NCBI GenBank assembly: GCA_002238685.1
Contig: MPMV01000001.1
Location: 186,001 to 250,000, forward strand
Direction of reading: 5' to 3'
Source of the DNA: a bacterium EF100-94H03 bin56
GTDB taxonomy: Bacteria; Pseudomonadota; Alphaproteobacteria; SP197
Length of the DNA stretch: 64,000 nt
The translations under genes and the position numbers were made by a program. This document shows positions 15,536-47,222 of this stretch, in pieces. Below the pieces are notes generated by a model, which searched no databases, was not told where the DNA came from, and saw only the letters and a list, made by a program, of their open reading frames with translations. Within the stretch, counting starts at the first letter, position 1. Each line of letters opens with the position of its first letter.

Positions 15536-17332
15536 TCAGCGACCCACGGCGTAGCACTGCCGGCGCGGACTGGCGGCGGCGCGCAGCACGCGGCCTTCCT
15601 TCGAGGCCATTGTCATCGAGTTGTAGTGACTCCAGTGCGGATAGATCCTGAGGTCGTGACCCCTGCGGTCGAGGTCATCGAGGGTGGACCGGGGGAAATG
15701 ATCCTCGATGGCCAGATGGCCCGGCATCCACTCGCGCGGGTAGAACGAACTCGGCATGTGGTCGGTGTAGAAGGATGGCGCGTCAAGGGACTCCTGGAGA
15801 GTCATGCCGTGATCCACATGGCGCAGGAAGGCATGGAGAGACCACTGGTCCTGATGATCGCCCCCGGGCGTGCCGAAGACGAGGCGCGGTTCGCCCCTGT
15901 GAAGCGCCAGGGTAGGAGTCAGAGTGGTGCGAGGCCGCTTGCCTGGCTGCAGTGCATTGGGATGGGCGTCGTCGAGCCAGAACATCTGTCCCCTGACCGA
16001 GACCGGAAAGCCGAGACCGGGTACGACAGGCGATCCCGTGAGCCAACCACCGGAAGGGGTGCCCGAAATCATGTTGCCATGGCGGTCGATGACGTCGAAG
16101 TGGCAGGTATCACCATGGCGCCGGGCCACAAATTCGCTCCATGTCCGCCACGGTTTCGATCCGGCGCTGCTCTCGGGAGAGGTCGATGCATGGGCGATGT
16201 TGGTTGAGCCCAGAGCTCTCAGCGTGATGGCGCCACCGTAACCGTCGATCGTTCCGGGCCGCATCTCCAGGCTGGCGGCTTCCTCCACGAGTTGGCGCCG
16301 GCTGGCGCAGTAGTCTTCGGACAGCAGCCGTTCAAGCGGCACATCGACAAAGCGGGGATCGCCGTAGAAGGCCTCGCGGTCGGCAAGGGCAAGCTTGGCG
16401 CATTCCTGAATCACGTGGACGAATTCAGGCCCCGACGCATCCATGGCCGCCACGTCGAAGCCCTTGAGGAGGGCCAGCTGCTGGAGCAGGACAGGGGCCT
16501 GGGACCAGGGTCCGGCCTTGCAGACGGTGTAGTCGCCGTAATCCAGAGTCACCGGATCCTCGACGGTGGCGCGCCAGCGCGCCAGGTCATCACCGGTGAG
16601 AAATCCCGCATGGGCCTCGCCGCTGGAATCCATGACCGGTTCGCGCATGAACCGGTCGATCGCCTCTGCGACAAACCCCTCGTACCATGCCTTGCGTGCC
16701 GCCTCGACCTGGGCCTCGCGGTCACCGCCCGCGGCCTCCGCCTCCTCGATGATCCTCTCCCAGGTCCGGGCCTGCATGGGCAGGCGGTGGAGGTCACCGG
16801 CCTCGAGGGTGCCGTCACAGTAGGCTTCTGCCGATGTCGGCCAGAACTCCTCCATGAAGGGACGCGCTTGCCGGAGAACGGAAGCGACCGTCGGAGTGAG
16901 CAGGAAGCCGTCGCGGGCGATGGCGATGGCCGGTTCGAGAACCTCGCGAACCGTGAGGCACCCGTAGTCGCGCAACAGCAGCATCCAGGCCCCGAAACTG
17001 CCGGGCACGACGACGGGCAGATGTCCGGTTCCCGGCATGATATCGAGGCCCATGTTCCGCAGGGCCTCACCGGAGATCGTCGACGGTGCCACCCCCTGTC
17101 CACAGATGACGTCGACCCTGCTCCTCTTCTCGCTCCACAGGATGAGGGGGACATCGCCGCCTGGACCATTCTGGTCCGGTTCGACCACATGGAGGACACA
17201 GCCGGCCGCCACTGCCGCATCGAAGGCATTGCCGCCCCGTTCCAGCATGGCCATGCCGGCGGCACTGGCCTGCCAGTGGGTGGTGGTCACCATGCCGAAG
17301 GTTCCGACAAGTTCCGGGCGTGACTGGATCAT
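15536..17332 (-). CDS. Gamma-glutamyltransferase family protein (Ntn hydrolase)
   Basis: 598 residues from ATG 17332, preceded by AGGGAGCCATGCC; an in-frame start at 17380 is possible. The family is made as a precursor that cleaves itself before a catalytic Thr. The expected nucleophile is in HGDTCHFDVIDRHGN, and oxyanion/glycine motifs include SGTPSGG and TPGGDHQDQW. N-terminal features ASAAGMAMLERGGNAFDA and NGPGGD are typical. No clear signal peptide is seen, so a cytoplasmic form acting on gamma-glutamyl compounds or related amides is possible. It converges with the hydroxyacid dehydrogenase and is on the same strand as the DUF427 and sulfatase genes. Confidence 0.92.
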   Translation of the reverse strand: MIQSRPELVGTFGMVTTTHWQASAAGMAMLERGGNAFDAAVAAGCVLHVVEPDQNGPGGDVPLILWSEKRSRVDVICGQGVAPSTISGEALRNMGLDIMPGTGHLPVVVPGSFGAWMLLLRDYGCLTVREVLEPAIAIARDGFLLTPTVASVLRQARPFMEEFWPTSAEAYCDGTLEAGDLHRLPMQARTWERIIEEAEAAGGDREAQVEAARKAWYEGFVAEAIDRFMREPVMDSSGEAHAGFLTGDDLARWRATVEDPVTLDYGDYTVCKAGPWSQAPVLLQQLALLKGFDVAAMDASGPEFVHVIQECAKLALADREAFYGDPRFVDVPLERLLSEDYCASRRQLVEEAASLEMRPGTIDGYGGAITLRALGSTNIAHASTSPESSAGSKPWRTWSEFVARRHGDTCHFDVIDRHGNMISGTPSGGWLTGSPVVPGLGFPVSVRGQMFWLDDAHPNALQPGKRPRTTLTPTLALHRGEPRLVFGTPGGDHQDQWSLHAFLRHVDHGMTLQESLDAPSFYTDHMPSSFYPREWMPGHLAIEDHFPRSTLDDLDRRGHDLRIYPHWSHYNSMTMASKEGRVLRAAASPRRQCYAVGR

Positions 17333-18629: not shown

Positions 18630-20141
18630 TCAGGTCCTGGCATAGATGCCATCCACGTCACCGTCGCCACGCACATACTCACGCGAGGCATCACGCACCG
18701 GTTGCCAGTCCCAGGGTGTGCGACGGCCAACCGACAGGGCGGCGTGAAGGAACTTCCTGCGCCTCTGACTCTCGATCACGCGATCCTTCAGGGCCGCGGT
18801 ATCCCACCGGCGACAGACCTCGCCGGCAAGATCGGTCTCGACGCCGCCGACCTCCGGTGTCCCGGCGAGGTTGACGAGTTCGTCAGGATCCTGCTCGATG
18901 TCGAAGAGCAGGGGCGGATCATCCTCGCAATGGATGTACTTCCAGCGTCCGCGGCGAATCATGAGCACCGGTGAGGACGCGCCCTCACCGCAGTACTCGC
19001 TACCGACGACATCGGGCCAGCCGTCACTGTGTCCGGCGGCCAGTCCGGCGATGCTGGCGCCGTCGATCGGCGCGAACAGTTCCGGCAGTTCGCCGTCGCC
19101 GGCCCATTCCAGGAAGGTCGGAAAGAGATCCAGCAGGGACACGTTCTCCCTGACCCGGCGCGCTCGATAGAGCGTCGGTGCATGCACGATCAGCGGTACG
19201 CGCACCGACCACTCGAAGAAGTTCATCTTGAGCCACAGGCCGCGTTCGCCAAGCATGTCTCCGTGATCGGCTGTCAGGACGACGATCGTATTGTCGTGTG
19301 CGTCGATGGCCTTGAGGGTCTCCAGGATCCGCCCGATGCGGTCATCGAGCCAGCTCATCACGGCATAGTAGGCGCGTCGCGCCCGGCGTACGTCCGCAGG
19401 ACCGATCGTCTCCATGTGGCGACCGATCGTGTAGTACAATCTGCGACTGTGGGGGTCACGCTCCTCGAGCGGGATGTCGCCGACCCTGGGATCGTCGATC
19501 CCGTCGTCCGTGTAGAGATCCCAGTGAGACGGAGGCGCCAGGTAGGGGTCGTGCGGGCTGATGAAACTCGCCGCCAGGAAGAAGGGCCGGCCATCGGCCC
19601 GGTCGGCGTGATCGTGCAGCCAGCGGCAGGCCTCGACGGTTGCCTCCTCATCGTAGCTCGTGTTGACGCTGCGCCGCCGGGGTCCCGCATCGCGCACAAT
19701 CCGCACCGAGTGGAACCACGGTTCCCAGAAGGTCGGACCCAGCGACCAGTCGCTGGTCCACGAGAAGTCGGCGGGATAGACGTCGGTCGTCACCCGATCC
19801 TCGAAACCGTGAAGCTGATCCGCACCGACAAAGTGCATCTTGCCGGAAAGACACGTGTGATAGCCCATTGCACGAAGATAGTGTGCGAAGGTCGGGACCT
19901 CGGATGGAAATTCGGTTGCGTTGTCGAACGCTCCGATGCGGCTCGGCATGCGGCCTGACATAAGGCTGAAGCGAGCCGGCGCACAGATCGGGTAATTGCA
20001 GTAGGCGTTCTCGAACACAACGCCCTCGCCGGCCAGCCGCTCCAGATTGGGCGTCCGGCACACCGTGCCGCCGTAGGGCTTCAGCACCTGAGGCGCGAGT
20101 TGATCCATCATGACAAGGAGGATGTTGGGAGGTGCCGTCAT
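18630..20141 (-). CDS. Choline-sulfatase-like sulfatase (first copy)
   Basis: 503 residues from ATG 20141 (MTAPPNILLVMMDQL); the in-frame extension to 20300 overlaps the divergent promoter and is unlikely. It hydrolyses a sulfate ester, most likely choline-O-sulfate to choline. The sulfatase signature CAPARFSLMSG has Cys53, to be converted to formylglycine. An N-terminal metal Asp is in MMDQL, SGKMHFVG and LTADHGDMLGE follow, and the C-terminal TPWDWQPVRDAS tail is typical of BetC. No signal peptide is seen, so it is cytoplasmic. It is divergent from the FAD oxidase with only 67 bp between starts. A second copy is at 45.7 kb. Confidence 0.93.
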   Translation of the reverse strand: MTAPPNILLVMMDQLAPQVLKPYGGTVCRTPNLERLAGEGVVFENAYCNYPICAPARFSLMSGRMPSRIGAFDNATEFPSEVPTFAHYLRAMGYHTCLSGKMHFVGADQLHGFEDRVTTDVYPADFSWTSDWSLGPTFWEPWFHSVRIVRDAGPRRRSVNTSYDEEATVEACRWLHDHADRADGRPFFLAASFISPHDPYLAPPSHWDLYTDDGIDDPRVGDIPLEERDPHSRRLYYTIGRHMETIGPADVRRARRAYYAVMSWLDDRIGRILETLKAIDAHDNTIVVLTADHGDMLGERGLWLKMNFFEWSVRVPLIVHAPTLYRARRVRENVSLLDLFPTFLEWAGDGELPELFAPIDGASIAGLAAGHSDGWPDVVGSEYCGEGASSPVLMIRRGRWKYIHCEDDPPLLFDIEQDPDELVNLAGTPEVGGVETDLAGEVCRRWDTAALKDRVIESQRRRKFLHAALSVGRRTPWDWQPVRDASREYVRGDGDVDGIYART

Positions 20142-24929: not shown

Positions 24930-25895
24930 ATGCAGATCAACATGCAGGGGCCGGCAGGCCGCTACAATCCGCCCTACGGCGGAATCGCGACATTCCTGCG
25001 TCAGGACTACTGCGACGACATCGCCACTCTCGATGCCGACTACGCCATTCTCGGGACACCGATCGACGAGGGGTCTCCCTTCATGGGCGGGTCGCGTTTT
25101 GCTCCCCGTTCCATCCGGGAACACTCCCTGAGGTTCGGATCAGCGGGGTACTACGACAGCCTCACCGGCAAGTCCTACCTGGTCGAGGAAACGGCAAACC
25201 GGCGCATCGTCGATGTCGGAGACAGTGACATCCTGACCACCAATGTCGAAAGGACATTCGACAACATCACCGCTGATGTCGCGGGGATCCTCGAGCGCGG
25301 CGCCATGCCGGTCATCATCGGTGGCGATCACTCGGTTACCTATCCGGTGGTGCGGGCGTTCGGTGAGCCCATGCACGTCATGCACTTTGACGCCCACCTG
25401 GATTATCAGCCCTTCGTTCACGACCTGCGGTTCACGAACGGCCATGCCTTCCGTCACATCAAGCCCATGTCCCATGTGCTGTCGCTGACACAGATCGGCA
25501 TCCGCAGCCTCAGAAGCGCCCTCCAGGAGTTCATCGACGCCCGCGCCGAAGGCAGCCACATCGTCACCATGGATGACATCCGCCGGCTTGGCCCCGAGGG
25601 CTTTGTGCATGAGACCTTCCCGCGGGGCGAAAAGATGTATGTGTCGATTGATGTCGATGTTCTCGACATGTCGCTCGTGCCGGGCTGCGTCTCTGCCGAA
25701 CCCAACGGCATGCTCTATGCCGAACTGCGCGACATCCTGCGCGCCACGGCACGACACATGGACGTCATCGGCTTCGACTTCGTCGAGGTCAACCCCCAGC
25801 TCGACGTCGGCACCGGCGTGACGTCCTACCTCGGGGCTCACACCATGCTGGAGTTCCTCGGCGCCATCGCCGAGGCGAAGGCCGCCAGAAGGTAG
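24930..25895 (+). CDS. Agmatinase/ureohydrolase family protein
   Basis: 321 residues. Ureohydrolases split a guanidino group to give urea and an amine at a two-manganese centre. All three metal signatures are present: GGDHS (131-135), HFDAHLD (152-157 region, Asp153 and Asp157) and SIDVDVLD (Asp241, Asp243). The length fits agmatinase. HLDY in place of the common HTDT suggests a relative such as guanidinobutyrase or a proclavaminate-type amidinohydrolase. It forms a probable operon with the methyltransferase and converges with the CocE hydrolase gene (25 bp apart). The product amine would fit the amine-oxidation theme nearby. Confidence 0.92.
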   Translation: MQINMQGPAGRYNPPYGGIATFLRQDYCDDIATLDADYAILGTPIDEGSPFMGGSRFAPRSIREHSLRFGSAGYYDSLTGKSYLVEETANRRIVDVGDSDILTTNVERTFDNITADVAGILERGAMPVIIGGDHSVTYPVVRAFGEPMHVMHFDAHLDYQPFVHDLRFTNGHAFRHIKPMSHVLSLTQIGIRSLRSALQEFIDARAEGSHIVTMDDIRRLGPEGFVHETFPRGEKMYVSIDVDVLDMSLVPGCVSAEPNGMLYAELRDILRATARHMDVIGFDFVEVNPQLDVGTGVTSYLGAHTMLEFLGAIAEAKAARR

Positions 25896-25919: not shown

Positions 25920-28011
25920 TCACACAAGATGACGGTCGATGGGCACGGACCAGCGGCGCGTCAGGATCCGGTCACGGCCCTCCCGGACGTCGAGATCGGC
26001 GGCGAGATGGAACTGTTCGCGTGATGCCCTGAGATGGGTGCGGGCACGCACGTCCACCTCGAAATCGCCGCGTTTCATGTGGGTGGTGACGACGACCTCA
26101 CTCTCGGCGGAGAGCGGGTCGTCCGGAGTGATGCTCATGCGTTCGAAGGTGTCCCTCGCGAACTCGAGACCATGGTCTTCGATGCGGTAGGTGCCGCTGC
26201 CCCGCTCGGACGTCACTTCGAGACGCCCTGATTGCTGATCAATCGTGGTTACGTTGCGCGATTGCGGAGCGGCGATCTGCGTCATTGCCATCGCCGGTGC
26301 CTGTTCCGGTTCCTCGAATTCACCGATCCGGGGCCCGCCCGTGGCAGGTCTCACCGGAAGGTCGAGCACACTGGTCCCGGTATGGACCGTCAGCAGTACC
26401 GGTTCGGGAGCCGGAAACAGCATCGGCCAGTAGGTTGTGGAGAGCGACATGCGGATCCGGTGCCCCTTGCGAAAGCGGTAGGCGCAGTCGTTGAGCGTCA
26501 ACTGCACCGTCGTCGGGCTGCCCGTGGGCATGGCTTCGGGCTCATCGTGTCCGTGGCGATGGGTCAGGTTGAGGACACCGAAGGACGCCCGTGACACCGC
26601 GCCATCGGGACGGACGTCGTTGAGGCGGGCGATGAGATAGGCGACCGGCCTGTCGACCTCGAGTTCAAGTTCCGCCACCGGCTGGCCGAGAATGTCGATG
26701 TCCGTGTCAAGAGGTTGGGTCTCGAAGGTGATCGACGCACCGTCGTCCTGGCGCTGATCGCCAGGGAACTCGGTTCCGTCACCGCCGGTGCCGTAAGGGC
26801 ACCATTCGCCGCCGGCAAGACCCAGCGTCTGGGGCGTGACGGCGGATCGCGGCTCGTTGCGGGCCGGCTTCCCCGCCAGAGCGCCCCGGGGCGGGGGGCG
26901 TGACGGCGTCTCGGGCCTCGTGGCGCCCCGCTCCCCCGCCGAGACCGTCCGGGTTCAGGTGGTAGCGGCGGTTGCGGATTCGCTGCGAGGGCCACGTGAC
27001 CTCGCCGATCCAGTGACCCGGACAGTCACGGTACCAGGAACGGGGCGGCACCCCGTCCTGCAGGAAGACCCGCAGCATGGGCTCTTCCATGATTCCCGTC
27101 TCCTCGTGCTTGAGCCAGTGATCCCACCAGCGCAGCATTTCCTGGAGAAAGCCGAAGTGGGGGCCGGGCGCGGTCTCCATATGGCCCCACTGGTGGGCAT
27201 GGGGGCCGATGAGTCCGAGGCGCGGTACCTCGAGCCCGGCAAGCAGGCGGAAGACGGCATTGGAATAGCCGTCGAGCCAGCCACCGACGGCGAAGACCGG
27301 GCAGCGGATGGCGCCATAGTCCTCGCACACCGATCCGTGACACCAGTAGGCATCGCGCGTCTGGTGGCGCATCCAGGTTTCGACGGGGCAGGGGACGTCC
27401 TCCAGCCGCGCTTGCCAGTTCGCTCGCCAGTCCTCTCCCATGATCAGCGGGTCTCCGGGGAGGGGCAGGATGCCGAAGAAGGTGGTTCCCCAGTCGAGGT
27501 TGTCGTTGAGCAGACAACCACCCATGTAGTGCATGTCGTCGCTGTAGCGGTCGTCGGTGGAGCACGACGTGACCACGGCCTTGAGTTCCGGAGGCTGCAG
27601 GGCGGCCACCTGAAGCGAGTTGAAGCCGCCCCAGGAGATGCCGAACATGCCCACGTTGCCGGTGCACCAGGACTGCCTGGCGATCCAGGCAATCACCTCG
27701 CGGCCGTCCTCGAGTTCCTGCCTGGTGTACTCGTCGCGCATGACGCCGAAACTGTCACCGGCGCCGGCTAGGTCGACGCGCAGGCTGGCATAGCCGTGGC
27801 CGGCGAACCAAGCGTGTTTCGGCTCGTCTCCCGGCCGCGTCATGTCGCGCTTGCGATAGGGGAGATACTCGAGAAGCGCCGGCACCGGGCGGCGTTCCGC
27901 ATTGTCGGGAAGCCAGATGCGCGCCGCCAGGCGAACGCCGCGCTTGAGAGGGATCCATACACCCTCTTCCCTCACCTCCACCTTCGAGGGCAGAGCGTCG
28001 ACGATGCGCAT
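25920..28011 (-). pseudogene. CocE/NonD-type serine hydrolase (X-Pro dipeptidyl-peptidase family), reading frame interrupted
   Basis: Start ATG 28011 (GGGAG upstream). The first part runs to about 26950 with FGISWGGFNSLQ (nucleophile Ser), GGWLDGYSN (Asp) and GPHAHQWGH (His), the S15 alpha/beta-hydrolase triad. The C-terminal jelly-roll part resumes one frame over (LAGGEWCPYGTGG to the end at 25920). The break is a 64-bp imperfect repeat at 26831-26958. Removing one repeat unit restores a continuous protein of about 670 residues. Family members cleave acyl or amide bonds (cocaine esterase, acylases). It is divergent from the solute-binding protein gene. The break may be an assembly error. Confidence 0.85.
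26831..26958. repeat. Imperfect 64-bp direct duplication breaking the CocE hydrolase frame
   Basis: GGGGCGTGACGGCG occurs at 26831 and again at 26895, and the sequence after each still aligns loosely. The copy at 26895 is the degraded one, and on the coding strand it reads as a G-rich string (reverse of 26932-26953). The offset of 64 shifts the frame by one. Confidence 0.75.
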
Positions 28012-28088
28012 GACTGTGACTCCCGCTGCTCCATGACAGTCTACACGCATCCGTGCCATAGCGCCTTGTCGTCGCGCCGGTGTCGAGT

Positions 28089-28106
28089 TTGATTGACCAG
28101 TCAGAA
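28089..28106. promoter_or_regulatory. BetI/TetR-type operator candidate, copy 1
   Basis: TTGATTGACCAGTCAGAA holds the partial palindrome TGAC-CA-GTCA. It lies between the divergent CocE and binding-protein genes and is kept in the second duplicated unit (30440-30457) although the flanking DNA has diverged. Confidence 0.55.
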
Positions 28107-28127
28107 AACCTGGGTGATGCTCACCAG

Positions 28128-28183
28128 GTCCGCAACCAGGTGACGCGGACACAACATGAAACCCGGGGCCACAGGGCTCCGGG
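28128..28183 (+). promoter_or_regulatory. Structured leader of the first solute-binding-protein gene
   Basis: Two stem-loops precede the start at 28211. The first is GTCCGC (28128) with GCGGAC (28145-28150). The second is CCCGGGGCC (28162) with GGCTCCGGG (28175-28183), loop ACAG. Both are largely kept in unit 2. A ribosome site (GGAGG) follows at about 28198. Confidence 0.45.
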
Positions 28184-28210
28184 CTGGTGACAATCTGGAG
28201 GATCACATCC

Positions 28211-29320
28211 ATGGATATCAGGGATACCATCAAGCGACTTGAAAACGGGGAACTGAGCCGTCGCGAACTCGGCCAGGCGATGGCCGCGGTCGGACTGGTG
28301 TCGACGGTGATGCCGTTGACGGCGGCCCGTGCCGAGGAACAGGCGATCTACTTCACGTGGGCCGGTTATGACGATCCGATTTACTGGCCAGGTTATGTCG
28401 AGAAACATGGCGTGGAGCCGGACTGCCCGGTCTATGGCGACGCCGAGGAGGGCTTCACCAAGGTGAGAGCAGGCTTCGTCGTGGATGTCATTCATCCGTG
28501 CAGCAACAATGTGCCCCGCTGGCGGCACGCGGGCATTCTCCAGCCCATCGACACGTCCAGACTTTCCAATTGGAAGGACTTGATTCCGGCGCTCTACAAC
28601 ATCCAGGACGCCCAGCACGAGGGAGAGCAGTATTTCGCTCCCGTCGAGTGGGGACAGACGTCGATCACCTACCGCACGGACATCGTCGACTGGCAGGGCG
28701 AAGAGGAGTCGTGGGGGCTGCTGTGGGACGAGCGCTATGCCGGCAGGCTTTCGATCATCGATGCAGCCGAGGATGCCTGGTGGTGCGCCGCCATCTATGC
28801 CGGCGTCGATACCGACAACCTGACCGATGAAGCCTTGGCAAAGGTGCTCGATATCCTGAGGCAGCAGCGTGACCTGCTGCGGTTCCGCCAGAGTGACATG
28901 ACGACGGTGGAACAGGCTCTCGCCTCCGGCGAACTCGTGGCGGCCATGACCTGGAACAGTTCGCCCCTGGAACTCACCAGGCAGGGCATTCCGGTGAAGT
29001 TCGCCAACGTCAAGGAGGGCGCGCTCACCTGGGTCTGTGGCACGGTGCTGACCAGCAATGCGCCTCACTACGACAAGGCCCACGATCTCATTGACGCGAT
29101 GCTCGCTCCCGAGGTCGGGGTGCACACGATCGTGGAAAACGGTTACGGTCACTCGAGCGCCGCGGCATTCGATCTCGTCAGTGACGCCGATCTGACGGCC
29201 CGTGGACTCTCGAGAAATCCCTCCGACATCCTGGACAAGGGTGTCTTCCTGAGAGCGCAGGAAGAAGAGATCGAGACCATGATCAACCGTGACTGGGGTG
29301 AGATGATCGCCGGATTCTGA
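28211..29320 (+). CDS. Extracellular solute-binding protein, PotD/PotF-like, Tat-type signal (copy 1)
   Basis: 369 residues from ATG 28211 (GGAGGATCACATCC upstream). The N-terminus has SRREL at 16-20 followed by a hydrophobic stretch and TAARAEEQ, a twin-arginine-like signal for folded export. The mature protein resembles spermidine/putrescine-binding proteins (GILQPIDTS, NNVPRWRHAG, WGQTSITYRTD, LAPEV). It would capture an amine in the periplasm. No ABC permease or ATPase genes are adjacent, so its transporter must be elsewhere. It differs from copy 2 at 29 positions, several in FTWAGYDDPIYWPGY (49-62) and EQYFAPVEW (139-147), probable ligand contacts. Confidence 0.88.
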   Translation: MDIRDTIKRLENGELSRRELGQAMAAVGLVSTVMPLTAARAEEQAIYFTWAGYDDPIYWPGYVEKHGVEPDCPVYGDAEEGFTKVRAGFVVDVIHPCSNNVPRWRHAGILQPIDTSRLSNWKDLIPALYNIQDAQHEGEQYFAPVEWGQTSITYRTDIVDWQGEEESWGLLWDERYAGRLSIIDAAEDAWWCAAIYAGVDTDNLTDEALAKVLDILRQQRDLLRFRQSDMTTVEQALASGELVAAMTWNSSPLELTRQGIPVKFANVKEGALTWVCGTVLTSNAPHYDKAHDLIDAMLAPEVGVHTIVENGYGHSSAAAFDLVSDADLTARGLSRNPSDILDKGVFLRAQEEEIETMINRDWGEMIAGF

Positions 29321-29350
29321 CCGGACATCTCACCTTTTTGTCTGACAGAA

Positions 29351-29381
29351 GGGAACCGGGACACGCGTGGTCCCGGTTCCC
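29351..29381 (+). terminator. Strong hairpin after the first binding-protein gene
   Basis: GGGAACCGGGAC pairs perfectly with GTCCCGGTTCCC across a 7-base loop. No T-run follows, so it may be an mRNA-stabilising or attenuating stem rather than a classical terminator. The stem is identical in copy 2; only the loop differs. Confidence 0.6.
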
Positions 29382-29409
29382 GTTCCCTTCACAATGTGGT
29401 GGAAGCGAT

Positions 29410-30096
29410 ATGCCAGATGTCGCATCCCCGGCTTCGACCGGGTCGCAACCGACCGGCACGGCGGATCGGCGCCTTGCCGCCCGGCAGGCACGGTGCCAGC
29501 AGCTGATCGACGCCACCATCGAGTCCATCGCCAGGCGGGGGTTTTCGGGCACCACCCTGGCAACGGTTACGAGAGGCGCCAGGCTCTCGCATGGCGTGGT
29601 CAACTTTCACTTCCGCACCAAGGAAGACCTCTATGTCGAGACCCTGGGGTACCTGGCGCGGGAGCACTATGCGCTGTGGCGTGACGCCATGCTGAATGCG
29701 GGTCCGGACCCGGCGAACCAACTTCAGGCCATCCTGGAGGCGGACTTTGATCGCCGGATCTGCTCCAGAAAGAAACTGGCGGTGTGGTTCGCCTTCTGGG
29801 GTCAGGCGAAGTACCGGCCCGCCTATCTCGAGATCCATCATCGCTTCGATGACGAGAGATACGTCGAGATCTGCCGCCTGTGCCGGGAACTGGTGGCAAG
29901 CGGCGGATACCAGAACGCCGACGCGGAAGGCATTGCCCGCAGCCTCGAGGCCCTGGTCGACGGCCTGTGGCTCAACCTTCTCATGTATCCGCGGGATATC
30001 CGCCGGCAAACCTCGAGAACGGACTGCCTCGCCTATCTCGCCACGGTCTTTCCGCATCATTTCGCGCGGCCGGTGACGCATGGCTGCACGGCCTGA
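29410..30096 (+). CDS. BetI-like TetR-family regulator (copy 1)
   Basis: 228 residues from ATG 29410. The helix-turn-helix is at about 32-75 (IDATIESIARRGFSGTTL and RLSHGVVNFHFRTKEDL). The ligand domain has LAVWFAFWGQAKYRPAYLE and a HHRFDDERY segment, like BetI, which senses choline. A 228-residue length is slightly longer than BetI because of a 30-residue N-terminal tail. The HTH is identical to that of copy 2, so both should bind the same DNA, for which the TGACCAGTCA element is the best candidate. It is transcribed behind the binding-protein gene. Confidence 0.9.
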   Translation: MPDVASPASTGSQPTGTADRRLAARQARCQQLIDATIESIARRGFSGTTLATVTRGARLSHGVVNFHFRTKEDLYVETLGYLAREHYALWRDAMLNAGPDPANQLQAILEADFDRRICSRKKLAVWFAFWGQAKYRPAYLEIHHRFDDERYVEICRLCRELVASGGYQNADAEGIARSLEALVDGLWLNLLMYPRDIRRQTSRTDCLAYLATVFPHHFARPVTHGCTA

Positions 30097-30100
30097 TGCG

Positions 30101-30154
30101 GTGACCCGGGACTTACGCCACGACATCCTGTTCGAACCGGTGGCCATCGGGCCG
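30101..30154 (+). pseudogene. 5' fragment of a TMA-dehydrogenase-like gene left at the duplication junction
   Basis: Eighteen codons from GTG 30101 match the first codons of the intact gene at 32451 (TRD-RHDILFEPVAIGP), then switch at GGCCGG into CocE sequence. It marks the joint of the tandem duplication. Confidence 0.8.
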
Positions 30155-30362
30155 GCGAACCACGCGTGTTTCGGCTCGTCTCCCGTCCGCGCCATGTCGC
30201 GCTCGCAACAGGGGGGCATTCGAGAAGTGCGGGCACCGGATTGTGTTCCGCATCCTCGGGTAGCCAGTTGCGCGCCGCCAGGCGAACACCGCGCTTGAGT
30301 GGGATCCACACACCTTCTCCCCTTACCTCCACCTTCGATGGCAAGGCGCTGACGATGCGCAT
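30155..30362 (-). pseudogene. Decayed 5' fragment of the CocE-type hydrolase
   Basis: From ATG 30362 it reads MRIVSALPSKVEVRGEGVW and closely matches the N-terminus of the hydrolase starting at 28011 for about 50 codons, then loses frame and ends at the duplication joint. It lacks the catalytic residues and cannot be functional. Confidence 0.88.
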
Positions 30363-30439
30363 GGCCGTCTCTGCGCTCGTTCATGCCAGTCTGCACACAA
30401 CAGTCGCGATGGGTTTCATTGGCCGGGTCACCTTGAAAC

Positions 30440-30457
30440 TTGATTGACCAGTCAGAA
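30440..30457. promoter_or_regulatory. BetI/TetR-type operator candidate, copy 2
   Basis: TTGATTGACCAGTCAGAA is identical to the element at 28089-28106, upstream of the second binding-protein gene. The hydrolase beyond it has decayed, so only the rightward gene is left to be controlled. Confidence 0.55.
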
Positions 30458-30561
30458 AAATTGGAAGATGCTCACCGGGTCCGCAACCGAGTGACGCGGA
30501 CACAACATGAAACCCAGGGCCACCGGGCTCCGGGCTGGTGACAATCTGGAGGATCACATCC

Positions 30562-31671
30562 ATGGATATCAGGGATACCATCAAGCGACTTGAAAACGGG
30601 GAACTGAGCCGTCGTGAGCTCAGCCAGGCGATGGCTGCGGTCGGACTGGTGTCGACGGTGATGCCGTTGACGGCGGCCCGGGCCGAGGAACAGGCGATCT
30701 ATTTCACGTGGTCCGGCTATGACGTGCCGGAAATCTGGCCAAGCTATGTCGAAAAACACGGTGTGGAGCCGGATTGTCCGGTCTTCGGTGACGCCGAGGA
30801 GTCCTTCACCAAGGTGAGGGCGGGGTTCGTGGTGGATGTCATGCATCCCTGCAGCAACAATGTGCCGCGCTGGCGGCACGCGGGCATTCTCCAGCCCATC
30901 GACACGTCGCTGCTTTCCAACTGGAAGGACGTGGTCCCGGCGCTCTACAACATCCAGGACGCCCAGCACGAGGGACAGCAGTGGTTCGCTCCCTTCGAGT
31001 GGGGACAGACGTCGATCACCTACCGCACGGACATTGTCGACTGGCAGGGCGAAGAGGAGTCCTGGGGGCTGCTCTGGGATGAGCGCTACGCCGGCAGGCT
31101 TTCGATCATCGATGCGGCCGAGGATGCCTGGTGGTGCGCAGCCATCTACGCCGGTGTCGATACCGAAGACCTGACCGATGAAGCCCTGGCAACGGTTCTC
31201 GAGAGCCTGAGGCAGCAGCGTGACCTGTTGAGGTTCCGCCAGAGCGACATGACGACGGTCGAACAGGCTCTGGCCTCCGGCGAACTCGTGGCGGCCATGA
31301 CCTGGAACAGCTCACCCCTGGAACTCACCAGGCAGGGCATTCCGGTGAAGTTCGCCGACGTCAAGGAGGGAGCGCTCACCTGGGTCTGTGGCACGGTGCT
31401 GACCAGCAATGCGCCCCACTACGACAAGGCCCACGATCTCATCAACGCGATGATCGCTCCGGAGGTCGGAGAGCATGTGATCGTGGAGTTCGGTTACGGT
31501 CACTCAAGCGCCGCGGCCTTCGATCTCGTCAGTGATGACGATCTTACGGCCCGTGGACTCTCGAGAAATCCCTCCGACATTCTGGACAAGGGTGTCTTCC
31601 TGAGAGCGCAGGCTGAAGAGATCGAGACCAAGATCAACCGTGACTGGGGTGAGATGATCGCCGGTTTCTGA
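30562..31671 (+). CDS. Extracellular solute-binding protein, PotD/PotF-like, Tat-type signal (copy 2)
   Basis: 369 residues, same start context as copy 1, SRREL signal and TAARAEEQ cleavage region kept. By my count 340 of 369 residues match copy 1. Changes gather in FTWSGYDVPEIWPSY (49-62) and QQWFAPFEW (139-147), and in GEHVIVEFGYG near the C-terminus. These are where PotD-type proteins hold their ligand, so a changed specificity is plausible. As with copy 1, no permease genes are adjacent. It is followed by its own hairpin and regulator gene. Confidence 0.88.
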   Translation: MDIRDTIKRLENGELSRRELSQAMAAVGLVSTVMPLTAARAEEQAIYFTWSGYDVPEIWPSYVEKHGVEPDCPVFGDAEESFTKVRAGFVVDVMHPCSNNVPRWRHAGILQPIDTSLLSNWKDVVPALYNIQDAQHEGQQWFAPFEWGQTSITYRTDIVDWQGEEESWGLLWDERYAGRLSIIDAAEDAWWCAAIYAGVDTEDLTDEALATVLESLRQQRDLLRFRQSDMTTVEQALASGELVAAMTWNSSPLELTRQGIPVKFADVKEGALTWVCGTVLTSNAPHYDKAHDLINAMIAPEVGEHVIVEFGYGHSSAAAFDLVSDDDLTARGLSRNPSDILDKGVFLRAQAEEIETKINRDWGEMIAGF

Positions 31672-31701
31672 CCGGATATCGCACCTATTTGTCCGACAAG
31701 A

Positions 31702-31732
31702 GGGAACCGGGACACACGTGGTCCCGGTTCCC
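31702..31732 (+). terminator. Strong hairpin after the second binding-protein gene
   Basis: GGGAACCGGGAC and GTCCCGGTTCCC with a 7-base loop. The stem is identical to that at 29351-29381, which suggests it is under selection or was copied recently. No T-run follows. Confidence 0.6.
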
Positions 31733-31759
31733 GCCCCCTTCACAATGCGGTAACGCGTT

Positions 31760-32446
31760 ATGCCAGCTGTCGCATCCCCGGCTTCGACCGTGTCGCAACC
31801 GACCATCACGGCGAGCCGTCGCCTTGCCGCCCGGCAGGCACGGCGCCAGCAGCTGATCGACGCCACCATCGAGTCCATCGCCAGGCGGGGGTTTTCGGGC
31901 ACCACCCTGGCAACGGTTACGAGAGGCGCCAGGCTCTCGCATGGCGTGGTCAACTTTCACTTCCGCACCAAGGAAGATCTCTATGTCGAGACCCTGGGGT
32001 ACCTGGCGCGGGAGCACTATGCGCTGTGGCGAGACGCCATGCTGAATGCGGGGCCGGATCCGGCGAAACAACTGCAGGCCATCCTGGAAGCGGACTTCGA
32101 TCGCCGGATCTGCTCCAGAAAGAAACTGGCGGTGTGGTTCGCCTTCTGGGGCCAGGCGAAGTACCGGCCCGCCTATCTCGAGATCCATCATCGCTTCGAT
32201 GACGAGAGGTATGTCGAGATCTATCGACTGTGCCGGGAACTGGTGGCAAGCGACAGATACAAGGGCGCCGACGCGGAAGGCATTGCCCGCAGCATCGAGG
32301 CCCTGGTCGACGGCCTGTGGCTCAACCGTCTCATGTATCCGCGCGATATCCGCCGGCAGACCGCGAGAACGGACTGCCTCGCCTATCTTGCCACGGTCTT
32401 TCCGCATCATTTCGAGCGGCCGGAGACGCAAGGCTGCGCGGCCTGA
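31760..32446 (+). CDS. BetI-like TetR-family regulator (copy 2)
   Basis: 228 residues, 210 identical to copy 1 by my count. The DNA-binding half from residue 32 to about 100 is unchanged; differences lie in the N-terminal tail and in the C-terminal ligand half (EIYRLCRELVASDRYKGAD against EICRLCRELVASGGYQNAD). Its stop is 4 bp before the start of the TMADH-like gene, so regulator, flavoenzyme and MBL protein form one operon. It may respond to a methylated amine and repress the binding-protein promoters. Confidence 0.9.
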   Translation: MPAVASPASTVSQPTITASRRLAARQARRQQLIDATIESIARRGFSGTTLATVTRGARLSHGVVNFHFRTKEDLYVETLGYLAREHYALWRDAMLNAGPDPAKQLQAILEADFDRRICSRKKLAVWFAFWGQAKYRPAYLEIHHRFDDERYVEIYRLCRELVASDRYKGADAEGIARSIEALVDGLWLNRLMYPRDIRRQTARTDCLAYLATVFPHHFERPETQGCAA

Positions 32447-32450
32447 TGCG

Positions 32451-34532
32451 ATGACCCGGGATCCACGTCACGACATCCTGTTCGAGCCGGTAGCCATCGG
32501 GCCGGTGACGGCCCGCAACAGGTTCTACCAGGTGCCGCATTGCACCGGAAGCGGCTGGCAGAGCCCGCACATCCTTGCCGGACTGCGCGCCATGAAGGCC
32601 GAAGGCGGCTGGGCCGTGGTCAACACGGAATACTGTTCGCCTCATCCATCGATCGACGACACCCCCTATCCCATGGCTTCGCTGTGGGATGACCGCGACA
32701 TCCGGGCTCACGCCCTGATGGCCGACCAGGTGCACGGGCACGGTTCCCTTGCCGGCGTGGAACTGGTTCTGGGCGGCGCGAGGATGGCCAACCACCTGAC
32801 CCGCGAAGTACCGCTCGGAGTGGTCAGCATGCCGCTTGCCACAGGAGAACCCTTCCAGACACGGGCCATGGATCGCCAGGACATCCGCGAGGTCAGACGA
32901 TGGCACCGCAATGCGGCTCTGCGCGCCATGAAGGCGGGTTTCGACATCGTCTACGTCTATGCCACCCACGATTACCTGCTGTCGCAGTTCCTGTCGCCGG
33001 TGCTCAACACCCGCTCGGATGAATACGGCGGATCGCTCGCCAACAGGGTGCGTCTGGTGCGCGAACTCATCGAGGACACGAAGGACGCTGTCGGCGCGAC
33101 CATGGCTGTCGCGGTGCGATTCTCAGCCGAGACGAACGGCGGCGGTGGCGGTGACGGCACACCGGTTCCGGGCGAAACCGAAGACATGCTGGGACTGCTG
33201 GGAGAACTGCCGGACCTCTGGGACATCAACGTCAGCGACTACTCCCTCGAAATGGGGCTGTCACGATTCGTCGGTGAGGGGTCCCTGGAATCCTACGTTT
33301 CGACCATCCGGTCCCTGACGACGAAGCCGATCGTGTCTGTTGGACGTTTCACCTCTCCGGATACCATGGCGGCCTGGGTGAGGAAGGGGCTGGTTGATTT
33401 CATTGGTGCGGCGCGGCCCTCCATCGCCGATCCCTTCCTTCCGAAGAAGATCGAGGAGGGACGTGTCGAGGACATCCGCGAGTGTATCGGCTGCAACATC
33501 TGCTACATGGGTGATGCCCGCGGCGCCCCCATCCGCTGTACACAAAATCCCACCATGAGCGAGGAGTGGCGCCGCGGCTGGCATCCGGAGTCCATCGCCA
33601 GCCGGGGATCCGCGTCACGCGTTCTCGTCGTCGGGGCGGGACCGGCTGGCCTGGAAGCAGCTCTTTCCCTGGGGAGACGGGGATATGACGTCGTGCTTGC
33701 CGAGGCTACCCGCGAGCTTGGCGGCCGGGTGACAAGGGAAGCCATGCTTCCCGGCCTCGCGGAATGGCGGCGTGTGCGTGACTATCGGGTGACCCAGCTG
33801 AACAGGCTGGCCAACGTGGAGATCTATCCTGAAAGCACGCTGGGTCCGGAAGATGTCCTCGAGGTGGCGGCGGACCATGTGGCTGTGGCGACGGGAGCGC
33901 GCTGGAGAGCCGATGGTTTCGGCACCAGCAATCGCCGGGGGATCGAGAGCCTCGGGCCCCGTGAGAGCCTCTTCACGCCCGATGACATCATGGCCGGACG
34001 GTTACCTGAAGGCCGTGTGCTCGTCTATGACGATGACCACTACTACATGGGAACCGTCATGGCCGAGGCGCTGCGTGGCCAGGGTCTCGAGACCACGCTC
34101 GTGACGCCGGAAGATGCCGTCTCGTCCTGGGGAGGATTGACCCTGGACCGCTGGCGGGCCCGCAGACGGCTCATGGAGACCGGTGTCGGCATTGTCGTGG
34201 CCCATGAACTGGTATCCTTCGATGGCCGCCGGGCCCGCTTGGCCTGCTGCGCGAGCGGCGAGGAACGGGACATCGACGCGGACTCCATCGTTCTTGTCAC
34301 TTCGCGGACCCCAGATGATGCCCTCTACCGGTCGGTTCGCGAAAGCATGGAGGCGGGAGAGAAGGGCGCGCCGAAGTCGCTTAGACGGATCGGTGACTGT
34401 GATGCGCCTGCCATCATCGCCGCGGCGGTGTACTCCGGCCACCGTTACGCCCGCGAACTCGACACCGACATCGATCGCGACAATCCTCTCAGACACGACC
34501 GGGTCAACGTGGAGACGAACCATGAAAACTGA
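32451..34532 (+). CDS. Trimethylamine-dehydrogenase-like FMN/4Fe-4S/ADP flavoprotein
   Basis: 693 residues from ATG 32451. The N-terminal barrel binds FMN; Cys31 in VPHCTGSG matches the residue that carries the covalent 6-S-cysteinyl FMN in trimethylamine dehydrogenase, and NTEYCS keeps the substrate-pocket Tyr. The cluster is C345-x2-C348-x2-C351 with Cys363 (ECIGCNICY then IRCTQN). A Rossmann domain starts at GAGPAGLEA (395). The Trp that follows the third cluster Cys in the known enzyme (as I recall it, ISRW) is absent here (YMGD), so the aromatic bowl differs. It probably demethylates a methylated amine; histamine or N-methylproline relatives are alternatives. Confidence 0.9.
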   Translation: MTRDPRHDILFEPVAIGPVTARNRFYQVPHCTGSGWQSPHILAGLRAMKAEGGWAVVNTEYCSPHPSIDDTPYPMASLWDDRDIRAHALMADQVHGHGSLAGVELVLGGARMANHLTREVPLGVVSMPLATGEPFQTRAMDRQDIREVRRWHRNAALRAMKAGFDIVYVYATHDYLLSQFLSPVLNTRSDEYGGSLANRVRLVRELIEDTKDAVGATMAVAVRFSAETNGGGGGDGTPVPGETEDMLGLLGELPDLWDINVSDYSLEMGLSRFVGEGSLESYVSTIRSLTTKPIVSVGRFTSPDTMAAWVRKGLVDFIGAARPSIADPFLPKKIEEGRVEDIRECIGCNICYMGDARGAPIRCTQNPTMSEEWRRGWHPESIASRGSASRVLVVGAGPAGLEAALSLGRRGYDVVLAEATRELGGRVTREAMLPGLAEWRRVRDYRVTQLNRLANVEIYPESTLGPEDVLEVAADHVAVATGARWRADGFGTSNRRGIESLGPRESLFTPDDIMAGRLPEGRVLVYDDDHYYMGTVMAEALRGQGLETTLVTPEDAVSSWGGLTLDRWRARRRLMETGVGIVVAHELVSFDGRRARLACCASGEERDIDADSIVLVTSRTPDDALYRSVRESMEAGEKGAPKSLRRIGDCDAPAIIAAAVYSGHRYARELDTDIDRDNPLRHDRVNVETNHEN

Positions 34533-35298
34533 CGGCGCCCTGCCGATAGCCGAAGTCTGGTTTGCCATCGAGGCTCTCGATGACGGGATCATCCGGTTCC
34601 GGGAAGACCACATCGATTCCTATGCCGTGGGCGACATCTGGCTTGTCCGCGGGCGGGACCGGGACCTTGCGGTCGATACGGGCACCGGCATCGTGCCGCC
34701 CGCCCCGCTCGTCGAGGCCGTGGCCGGCAAGCCCGTCACTGCCGTAGCCCTCAACTGCTACTATGACCATGCCGGCGGCTGGGCGAGTTTCGCGGACCGC
34801 GCCTGTCATCCTCTCGATGCACAGGAACTTCGCGCACCCACCCGGGAAAGCGTAGGCGCCGGAACCTATCTCAACCGGACGACGCTGTGGGCGCTGCCTC
34901 ATGAACACTACGACGTGGACGGCTACACCATGACTCCGGCCGAGCCCACGCGTCTTGTCGAGGACGGATCACAGTTTGATCTGGGCGACCGCGTGCTCGA
35001 TGTCCTGCATGTCCCGGGGCGCTCACCAGGCGGTCTTGCGATCTGGGACGGCACAAGCGGTACGCTCTTCACCAGCGACATGCTCTATGACGGCGATCAC
35101 GGACCTGCCTGGCCGCCCCCCGAGCCGGCCGCCTACTGTGTCAGCCTGAGGCGCATGCGCGAACTCCCGGTCAAGCGCGTCTGTCCGGGTCACTACGGTG
35201 TCATGGACCGCCAGTACATGCTCGATGTCATCGACCGGCAACTGGCCGATCTCGAGGCAGACGCCTCCCGAGACGATGGCTCTGGGTTAGTTCATTGA
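34522..35298 (+). CDS. MBL-fold hydrolase-like protein with altered metal motif
   Basis: 258 residues from ATG 34522 (GGAGACGAACC upstream), overlapping the flavoenzyme stop by 11 bp and so coupled to it. The metallo-beta-lactamase fold is clear (LAVDTGTG, LHVPGRSPGG, LFTSDMLYDGDHG, CPGHYG). The usual H-x-H-x-D-H is N78-C-Y80-Y-D82-H83 here, so two of the four His positions are lost while Asp and the later His/Asp ligands remain. It may bind a single metal or act with a thiol or formaldehyde adduct made by the neighbouring demethylase. That is inference. Confidence 0.85.
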   Translation: MKTDGALPIAEVWFAIEALDDGIIRFREDHIDSYAVGDIWLVRGRDRDLAVDTGTGIVPPAPLVEAVAGKPVTAVALNCYYDHAGGWASFADRACHPLDAQELRAPTRESVGAGTYLNRTTLWALPHEHYDVDGYTMTPAEPTRLVEDGSQFDLGDRVLDVLHVPGRSPGGLAIWDGTSGTLFTSDMLYDGDHGPAWPPPEPAAYCVSLRRMRELPVKRVCPGHYGVMDRQYMLDVIDRQLADLEADASRDDGSGLVH

Positions 35299-45704: not shown

Positions 45705-47222
45705 TCAGCGCACGGTACCGGAATACGACGCCTGGATATCGCCGCCCTCGCGGAAGTAGAGCTCGGACGCATCGCGCAGGGGCTGGAAGTCCCAGGGAGT
45801 TCGCCTGCCGGTGTCGAGGGCAGCGCCAACCAGGCGCCTCGCGGACTGGCTCCGGCGCACAGCGGTGTCGAGTGCCTGGAGGTCCCAGGTCCGGTCGACG
45901 GCAGCTTCGAGTTCCGCACGCATACCTGCATGTGCGGGGTGCACCGCGAGATTCTCCCGCTCGTCCGGATCGGCATCGAGGTCGAAGAGAAGCGGTGGAT
46001 CAGTGGGACACGAGATCAGCTTGCAGGGGCCCTTGCGCACCATCACAAGAGGCGCCCGCACGCCCTCGGCCGTGTACTCGGCGCAGACGAGATCAGGCCA
46101 GTCATCGCCGCTGCCCGAGGCCAGTGGCGCGAGCGAGCGGCCGTCAATTGGCGCCGCCAGTTCCGGAAGCGCGCCGTCGTAGGCGACGTCGAGCAGGGTC
46201 GGGAGGAGATCGACGTGGGAGACGTTCGCACTCACCCGGCGCGGGGCGAAGGCAAGAGGCGCGTGCATGATGAAGGGAACACGGACCGACCATTCGAAGA
46301 AGGACATCTTGAAAAAGAGGCCACGCTCGCCGAGCGAATCGCCGTGATCGGAGGTGAAGACGATGAACGTGTCCTCTGCCATGCCGATCTCGTCCAGCGT
46401 CGCCAGCAGTCTGCCGACTTTCGCGTCTACATAGCTCGTCACCGCAAAGTAGGCGCGCCGCATGCGAAGAATATCCGCTTCGCCGATGTCCACCTGGTGA
46501 CGACCGGTGAGGAACCAGTGACGCCGGCTGTGCGGGTCGCGTTCTTCGAGCGGGATGTCCGGAACCCGGAGTGGATCGATTTCGATATCCCTGTACTGCT
46601 CCCACCAGCGGGGTGGAGCGAGGTAAGGGTCGTGGGGAGAGATGAACGAAACGGTGAGCGCAAACGGCCGTTCGTCACCGCTGTCTGCATGCTCGTGCAG
46701 CCATCGGACCGCCTCGAATTCGACTTCGTCGTCGTAGGCGATGTTCACGCTTCGCCGGTGCGGCCCGGCATCGAGGACCGCGTGCATGCTGTGATACCAC
46801 TCAAGCCAGCTCTCGTCGTCGAGACTCCAGTCCGGCGACCACAGGAAGTCGGCAGGGTAGACATCGGTCGTGACCCGCTCTTCGTATCCATGGAGCTGAT
46901 CGGGGCCGACGAAGTGCATCTTGCCGGCAAGACAGGTCCGGTAGCCGGCAATTCGAAGGTAGTGGTGGATGGTCGGCGTGGAAGCCGGGAACTCGACGGC
47001 GTTGTCGAATGCGCCGATCCTCGAAGGCAGACGCCCGCTCAGCATCGAAAACCGCGCGGGCGCGCACAGTGGAAAATTGCAGTAGGCGTTCTCGAACACC
47101 ACCCCGTCCCCGGCAAGGCGATCGAGATGCGGGGTCCTCACGCCGGTCCCGCCATAGGCGGACAGCACCTGCGGCGCGAGCTGGTCGACCATGATGAAGA
47201 GTATGTTGGGACGTTTTGCCAT
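45705..47222 (-). CDS. Choline-sulfatase-like sulfatase (second copy)
   Basis: 505 residues from ATG 47222. It has the same plan as the copy at 18.6 kb: NILFIMVDQLAPQVL, FGly Cys53 in CAPARFSMLSG, LAGKMHFVGPDQLHGYEE, FTSDHGDSLGE, and the C-terminal TPWDFQPLRDAS segment of choline-sulfatase. It is closely related to the other copy but clearly diverged, so the two are old paralogues or separate acquisitions. It is cytoplasmic. No choline transporter or betA/betB lies in the window. Its neighbours are yciB and trcR. Confidence 0.93.
   Translation of the reverse strand: MAKRPNILFIMVDQLAPQVLSAYGGTGVRTPHLDRLAGDGVVFENAYCNFPLCAPARFSMLSGRLPSRIGAFDNAVEFPASTPTIHHYLRIAGYRTCLAGKMHFVGPDQLHGYEERVTTDVYPADFLWSPDWSLDDESWLEWYHSMHAVLDAGPHRRSVNIAYDDEVEFEAVRWLHEHADSGDERPFALTVSFISPHDPYLAPPRWWEQYRDIEIDPLRVPDIPLEERDPHSRRHWFLTGRHQVDIGEADILRMRRAYFAVTSYVDAKVGRLLATLDEIGMAEDTFIVFTSDHGDSLGERGLFFKMSFFEWSVRVPFIMHAPLAFAPRRVSANVSHVDLLPTLLDVAYDGALPELAAPIDGRSLAPLASGSGDDWPDLVCAEYTAEGVRAPLVMVRKGPCKLISCPTDPPLLFDLDADPDERENLAVHPAHAGMRAELEAAVDRTWDLQALDTAVRRSQSARRLVGAALDTGRRTPWDFQPLRDASELYFREGGDIQASYSGTVR

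Follow-up and report, generated by a model that had tools for sequence, protein, structure and literature searches.

In the sea, methylated amines serve as important sources of nitrogen and carbon. The closest described relatives of the flavoenzyme considered here belong to the trimethylamine/histamine dehydrogenase (TMADH/HDH) family, its best PDB matches being histamine dehydrogenases (3k30, E=7e-211, and 6de6), then 6l6j and TMADH (1djn), aligned from end to end; these nearest PDB relatives are amine dehydrogenases with covalent FMN and a 4Fe-4S cluster. The active site of the Rhizobium HDH has been described as comprising Gln60, Phe72, Glu74, Tyr171, His174, Arg225, Trp263, and Asp265 (PMC10180351). 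For the MBL-fold protein encoded next to the flavoenzyme, an analogy is offered by CphA, which carries Asn116 and works with one Zn in its Asp120/Cys221/His263 site (PMC5018959).

The locus lies in a window of 64,000 nt (the whole stretch of DNA analysed) on contig 48 of genome G000. From general knowledge of such MAGs, we take the host to be probably sponge-associated. On the plus strand the genes run SBP1-TetR1-[junction]-SBP2-TetR2-flavoenzyme-MBL, and a split CocE/NonD hydrolase gene lies to their left on the minus strand:

25920..28011, minus strand: CocE/NonD (S15 X-Pro peptidase-like) hydrolase, in two ORFs (25920-26678 and 26779-28011)
28211..29320, plus strand: SBP1, PotD-type solute-binding protein, copy 1
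29410..30096, plus strand: BetI-like TetR regulator, copy 1
30100..30158, plus strand: 5′ remnant of a flavoenzyme gene copy, cut at the junction of the tandem duplication and continuing into the copy of the CocE 5′ end
30562..31671, plus strand: SBP2, PotD-type solute-binding protein, copy 2, 92% identical to SBP1
31760..32446, plus strand: BetI-like TetR regulator, copy 2, with TetR_C_6
32451..34532 (ATG to stop), plus strand: TMADH/HDH-family iron-sulfur flavoenzyme of the DYxxEMGxSRF clade, 693 aa
34522..35298 (ATG to stop), plus strand: MBL-fold protein, 258 aa, with N78-C-Y-Y81-D82-H83, R167, D186, and H224

The MBL start overlaps the flavoenzyme end by 11 nt. The window contains a tandem duplication of 2.35 kb (27798-30158 versus 30150-32508, 90.3% identity over 2368 aligned positions), in which the first flavoenzyme copy breaks off after about 19 codons at the junction, into the copied CocE 5′ end. 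An earlier note on this DNA had counted two binding proteins; both are present, but they arise from this one duplication, and since a single SBP copy adjoins the flavoenzyme in the related loci L013, L014, and L049, the doubled binding protein is a local event and no feature of the system. A dS of 0.27 between SBP1 and SBP2, together with the finding that the L013 SBP is nearer to SBP1 than to SBP2, suggests copies of unequal age or recombination between them. The BetI-like control described in the same note corresponds to a pair of BetI-type regulators from the same duplication; copy 2 scores 116 bits on the NCBIfam BetI model, under the equivalog cut-off of 201.3, and has the C-terminal TetR_C_6 domain. 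The CocE/NonD gene is a single ORF of 675 aa in L013 and L014 and is probably frameshifted in the window. Genes outside the window were called with a small in-house codon-usage caller, and many of the compared genomes are fragmented MAGs. Elsewhere in the window, a sulfatase with a choline-sulfatase C-terminal domain is encoded at 18630-20141, and a second gene, at 45705-47222, resembles it at the N-terminus.

The flavoenzyme combines an Oxidored_FMN domain (E=8e-68) with Pyr_redox_2, that is, an OYE barrel with a dinucleotide-binding domain, and its full-length alignment places it in the TMADH/HDH iron-sulfur flavoprotein family. The redox cysteines are kept in the TMADH alignment as had been claimed, with Cys30 at the position of Cys31 and the cluster ligands at Cys345, Cys348, Cys351, and Cys364, the cofactors being read from sequence alone. 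Y60, Y169, and H172 (TMADH numbering, common alignment) are also retained. The earlier note recorded the loss of one pocket Trp, and a Trp is indeed lost, but more than one is affected: W264 is replaced by Tyr and W105 by Val, and at the W355 position the Trp is absent and an HDH-type Asp stands instead. The TMADH aromatic bowl Y60/W264/W355 is thus not intact, only Y60 remaining, and D267 is further changed to Glu. In a quick tree of 60 rows (LG+G4, motif columns included), the 15 rows marked by the motif DYxxEMGxSRF, the window enzyme and 14 relatives, fell on one side of a branch with an SH-aLRT of 99. TMADH and the HDHs stand outside this clade, both HDHs in a different supported clade. 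No solved or characterized member of the DYxxEMGxSRF clade was found among PDB entries, a plasmid collection, the sampled genomes, and the open-access literature. On this alignment and tree, the window flavoenzyme belongs to an uncharacterized branch of the trimethylamine/histamine dehydrogenase family, a family that has nine members in G000 at E<=1e-150 and 3–15 in each of 16 genomes of the bacterial family.

The window-clade flavoenzyme is steadily accompanied by a BetI-type regulator and by a PotD-type ABC transporter. In L049, from a genome of two contigs, the order is SBP-permease-permease-ATPase-TetR-flavoenzyme-MBL-DUF995. L159 contains an ATPase, two permeases (55–58% identical to those of L049), a TetR (25%), an SBP, and two tandem flavoenzymes, the second of which is the window-clade member; L102 has an SBP that is 60% identical and also two tandem flavoenzymes. 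The more distant clade members L120, L148, and L150 share one or more Rieske oxygenases, ABC/binding-protein genes, two FAD oxidoreductases, and GcvT, with amine oxidases among the partners alongside the Rieske oxygenases and GcvT and with BetI-type TetRs that are 37–39% identical to the window TetR; a class III aminotransferase is common to L120 and L150. The L120 Rieske protein matches the stachydrine demethylase Stc2 (3vca) with E=1e-71, and it and two L150 Rieske proteins carry, at the Group V site, the Cys-X-X-Cys that is characteristic of some oxygenases of this group acting on quaternary ammonium compounds (PMC10952381). No Rieske/GcvT-type cluster occurs in L147 or L149. Rieske alpha matches number 19–53 per genome across 16 family genomes, so that a single co-location of Rieske and flavoenzyme genes may be due to chance, and we give weight only to the three recurring multi-gene clusters. 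These Rieske, GcvT, and amine oxidase genes, together with the BetI and PotD-ABC partners, favour an N-methylated or quaternary amine. With the query sequences used, neither Rieske nor GcvT genes turned up in the window, and a complete ABC operon was likewise not found near its genes, so this substrate class is borrowed from relatives that are 54–57% identical. Homarine catabolism was also weighed as a possible pathway and was neither adopted nor rejected. Literature searches on sponge symbionts with TMADH and on the combination of Rieske, TMADH, and aminomethyltransferase returned nothing useful. Small genes near family flavoenzymes at L102:4263-5042, L150:15476-16261, and L112:6884-7705 are alike by eye, and the one in L150 reads as a SAM-dependent methyltransferase.

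The window SBP is nearest to putrescine/spermidine-binding proteins, with E=8e-31 to the PotD-type 7xjm. In 13 of the 14 places compared, W-x-C-G stands where 7xjm reads W-M-D-S; the window protein reads W-V-C-G and retains the core Trp/Tyr residues. The Asp of W-M-D-S is a polyamine anchor in PotD, and its loss with the aromatic residues retained would fit a ligand other than a polyamine.

The MBL-fold protein was recognized by Lactamase_B (E=1.5e-12; 48.3 bits over a cut-off of 22.7). It has N-C-Y-Y-D-H in place of H-x-H-x-D-H, exactly as claimed, and farther on it reads PGR for PGH, which removes the later site-1 His as well, so that all three site-1 histidines are gone and the signature of a di-metal MBL (HxHxDH plus the later site-1 His) is absent. 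Residues aligned with the site-2 ligands are present, D82 for Asp120, H83 for His121, D186 for the bridging Asp, and H224 for His263. In nine orthologues with identities as low as 60%, N78, Y81, D82, H83, R167, D186, and H224 are invariant, while Tyr or Ser occupies the place of the site-1 His118. A dN/dS of 0.12–0.21 indicates purifying selection on the MBL gene, and pseudogene status of the flavoenzyme and MBL genes was ruled out on dN/dS. A mono-metal enzyme thus appears likelier than a dead gene. Many MBL relatives within the bacterial family carry HxHxDH. In the MBL tree, in which the program flags long branches, proteins of the window type (N..YDH) and those of a second type (xLGYYDH) fall into separate clades that unite in one group (99/95), suggesting that site 1 may have been lost once in this lineage. 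The AlphaFold model has a mean pLDDT of 60, and of about 28–37 over residues 81–140 around the metal site, where it is unreliable; a fold search with this weak model matched MBLs. Two further settings were seen among the relatives. In L054, L057, and L066 an LGYYDH-type MBL adjoins a gamma-glutamyltranspeptidase-like gene, a relative of which lies in the window at 15536-17332. In L053, L059, L060, L116, and L117 tandem pairs of canonical (HxHxDH) MBL relatives stand beside a BKACE-type gene, several of them with a Rieske oxygenase, an arrangement that recalls carnitine/betaine catabolism.

A fixed trio of regulator, flavoenzyme, and MBL, as the earlier note envisaged, is not what the neighbourhoods revealed. 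Among nine window-clade flavoenzymes with a readable downstream side (64–94% identity; L102 and L103 were left out because they end at contig ends), six have the MBL next to them (the window, L012, L013, L014, L015, and L049), and three (L101, L076, and L159) do not, an outcome that the earlier note had itself named as refuting its proposal. The gene overlap is kept in L012, L013, L014, and L049, and L015 has a short gap. The MBL orthologues in L016–L019 do not adjoin a flavoenzyme, and in G756 both genes are present on separate contigs. No window-type MBL was found elsewhere in G012 and G013 (best match 41%), so the MBL was probably lost there, and G758, an MBL-bearing MAG that may be incomplete, gave no flavoenzyme-family match at E<=1e-100. 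The MBL is an accessory with a life of its own, loosely tied to the flavoenzyme. L064, with a BetI-like TetR, an SBP, a Rieske oxygenase, an LGYYDH-type MBL, and an HDH-type flavoenzyme, resembles the window locus but was rejected as an orthologue, its proteins belonging to other branches of both families.

Taken as a whole, the locus may be an amine-catabolism operon that combines a dehydrogenase for an N-methylated or quaternary amine with an optional mono-metal MBL hydrolase, an explanation to which we give about even chances; the amine that the operon imports and oxidizes is probably N-methylated. A BetI-like repressor would control the operon, and a PotD-type ABC system, of which L049 has the full transporter operon, would import a cationic, probably N-methylated amine. 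The flavoenzyme would oxidize the C–N bond beside the covalently linked FMN, the electrons passing via the 4Fe-4S cluster to what is probably ETF, and hydrolysis of the imine would then yield a less substituted amine together with an aldehyde, which would be formaldehyde for an N–CH3 bond. The MBL would be an accessory hydrolase, translationally coupled but optional. It would probably use a single metal in site 2 (Asp82, His83, Asp186, and His224), and its target would be the substrate or product in the form of an ester, lactone, thioester, or amide.

A less probable possibility is that the flavoenzyme is an HDH-like primary-amine or polyamine dehydrogenase, turning an imported primary amine into aldehyde and ammonia, with the transporter carrying a polyamine or guanidino-amine. 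HDH-type enzymes of the same family use primary amines, and the HDH-like Asp at the W355 position and the rank of the HDHs as nearest solved relatives argue in this direction, as do the kinship of the SBP with putrescine/spermidine-binding proteins, an arginase-family gene at 24930-25895, and an agmatinase that adjoins an MBL relative in L123. However, the Rhizobium HDH pocket residues Q60, E74, and W263 (PMC10180351) are Y, M, and Y in the window enzyme, both HDHs belong to another supported clade, the SBP is without the Asp of W-M-D-S, and Rieske/GcvT genes stand beside the more distant clade members.

The MBL could be read differently as well. The earlier note had it processing the formaldehyde, or a thiol adduct of it, released by a demethylating flavoenzyme, and we consider this very improbable: the overlapping genes and the glyoxalase II-type hydrolases among the MBL relatives are consistent with it, but three close flavoenzymes have no MBL, some MBL orthologues do not lie beside the flavoenzyme (with no match at E<=1e-100 in G758), metal site 1 is lost, and the related clusters carry the folate-dependent GcvT instead. 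Nothing supports a role in handling the one-carbon unit. It is also unlikely that the MBL is a non-catalytic, binding or regulatory protein, a mere passenger of the operon since the loss of its metal function. The loss of all three site-1 histidines would agree with this, as would the related LGYYDH clade, which has also exchanged the bridging Asp for Glu; against it stand the invariance of D82, H83, D186, and H224 across the nine orthologues and the low dN/dS. The earlier observation holds and its interpretation is partly supported: of the undescribed module for demethylating a quaternary or methylated amine, the uncharacterized clade and the favoured substrate class stand, and the fixed trio does not. 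A stronger version of the amine-catabolism operon, in which an uncharacterized TMADH-family clade oxidizes one specific quaternary or N-methyl-amine of the sea while a mono-metal MBL of a new, site-2-only lineage catalyses a separate hydrolysis in that pathway, is a tentative proposal that we would rather doubt than accept. A clade with marker pocket residues and a recurrent transporter–regulator setting is a concrete starting point for substrate assignment, and in the MBL lineage nature offers a way to test whether site 2 alone is enough for an MBL enzyme to work.

Compared with known systems, the window flavoenzyme resembles TMADH of Methylophilus W3A1 (1djn) in the Cys30-FMN site, the four cluster Cys, Y60, Y169, and H172, and differs in W264 to Tyr, the lost W355, D267 to Glu, W105 to Val, and the position of TMADH outside the window clade. 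With histamine dehydrogenase (3k30, 6de6) it shares the highest PDB similarity, the Asp at the W355 position, and the domain order, whereas Q60 and E74 of HDH are Tyr and Met, a Trp is Tyr, and the HDHs fall in their own supported clade. The window SBP belongs by sequence to the same family as PotD/PotF and keeps the core Trp/Tyr, but it has W-V-C-G for W-M-D-S and no acidic residue there. Subclass B2 CphA has Asn at position 116, as does the window MBL, in which His121 is also present; sequence kinship was undetected, Asp stands for Cys221, and the window MBL has lost the His118 and His196 that CphA needs, so CphA serves as an analogy only. In the marine amine-catabolism clusters of the Parasedimentitalea marina plasmid pW43C (L120) and of G224 and G322 (L148 and L150), Rieske oxygenases, GcvT, and FAD oxidoreductases are present but an MBL is not, whereas in the window it is the MBL that is present, with none of those three alongside; what unites them is a DYxxEMGxSRF flavoenzyme together with PotD-type ABC genes and a BetI-type TetR.
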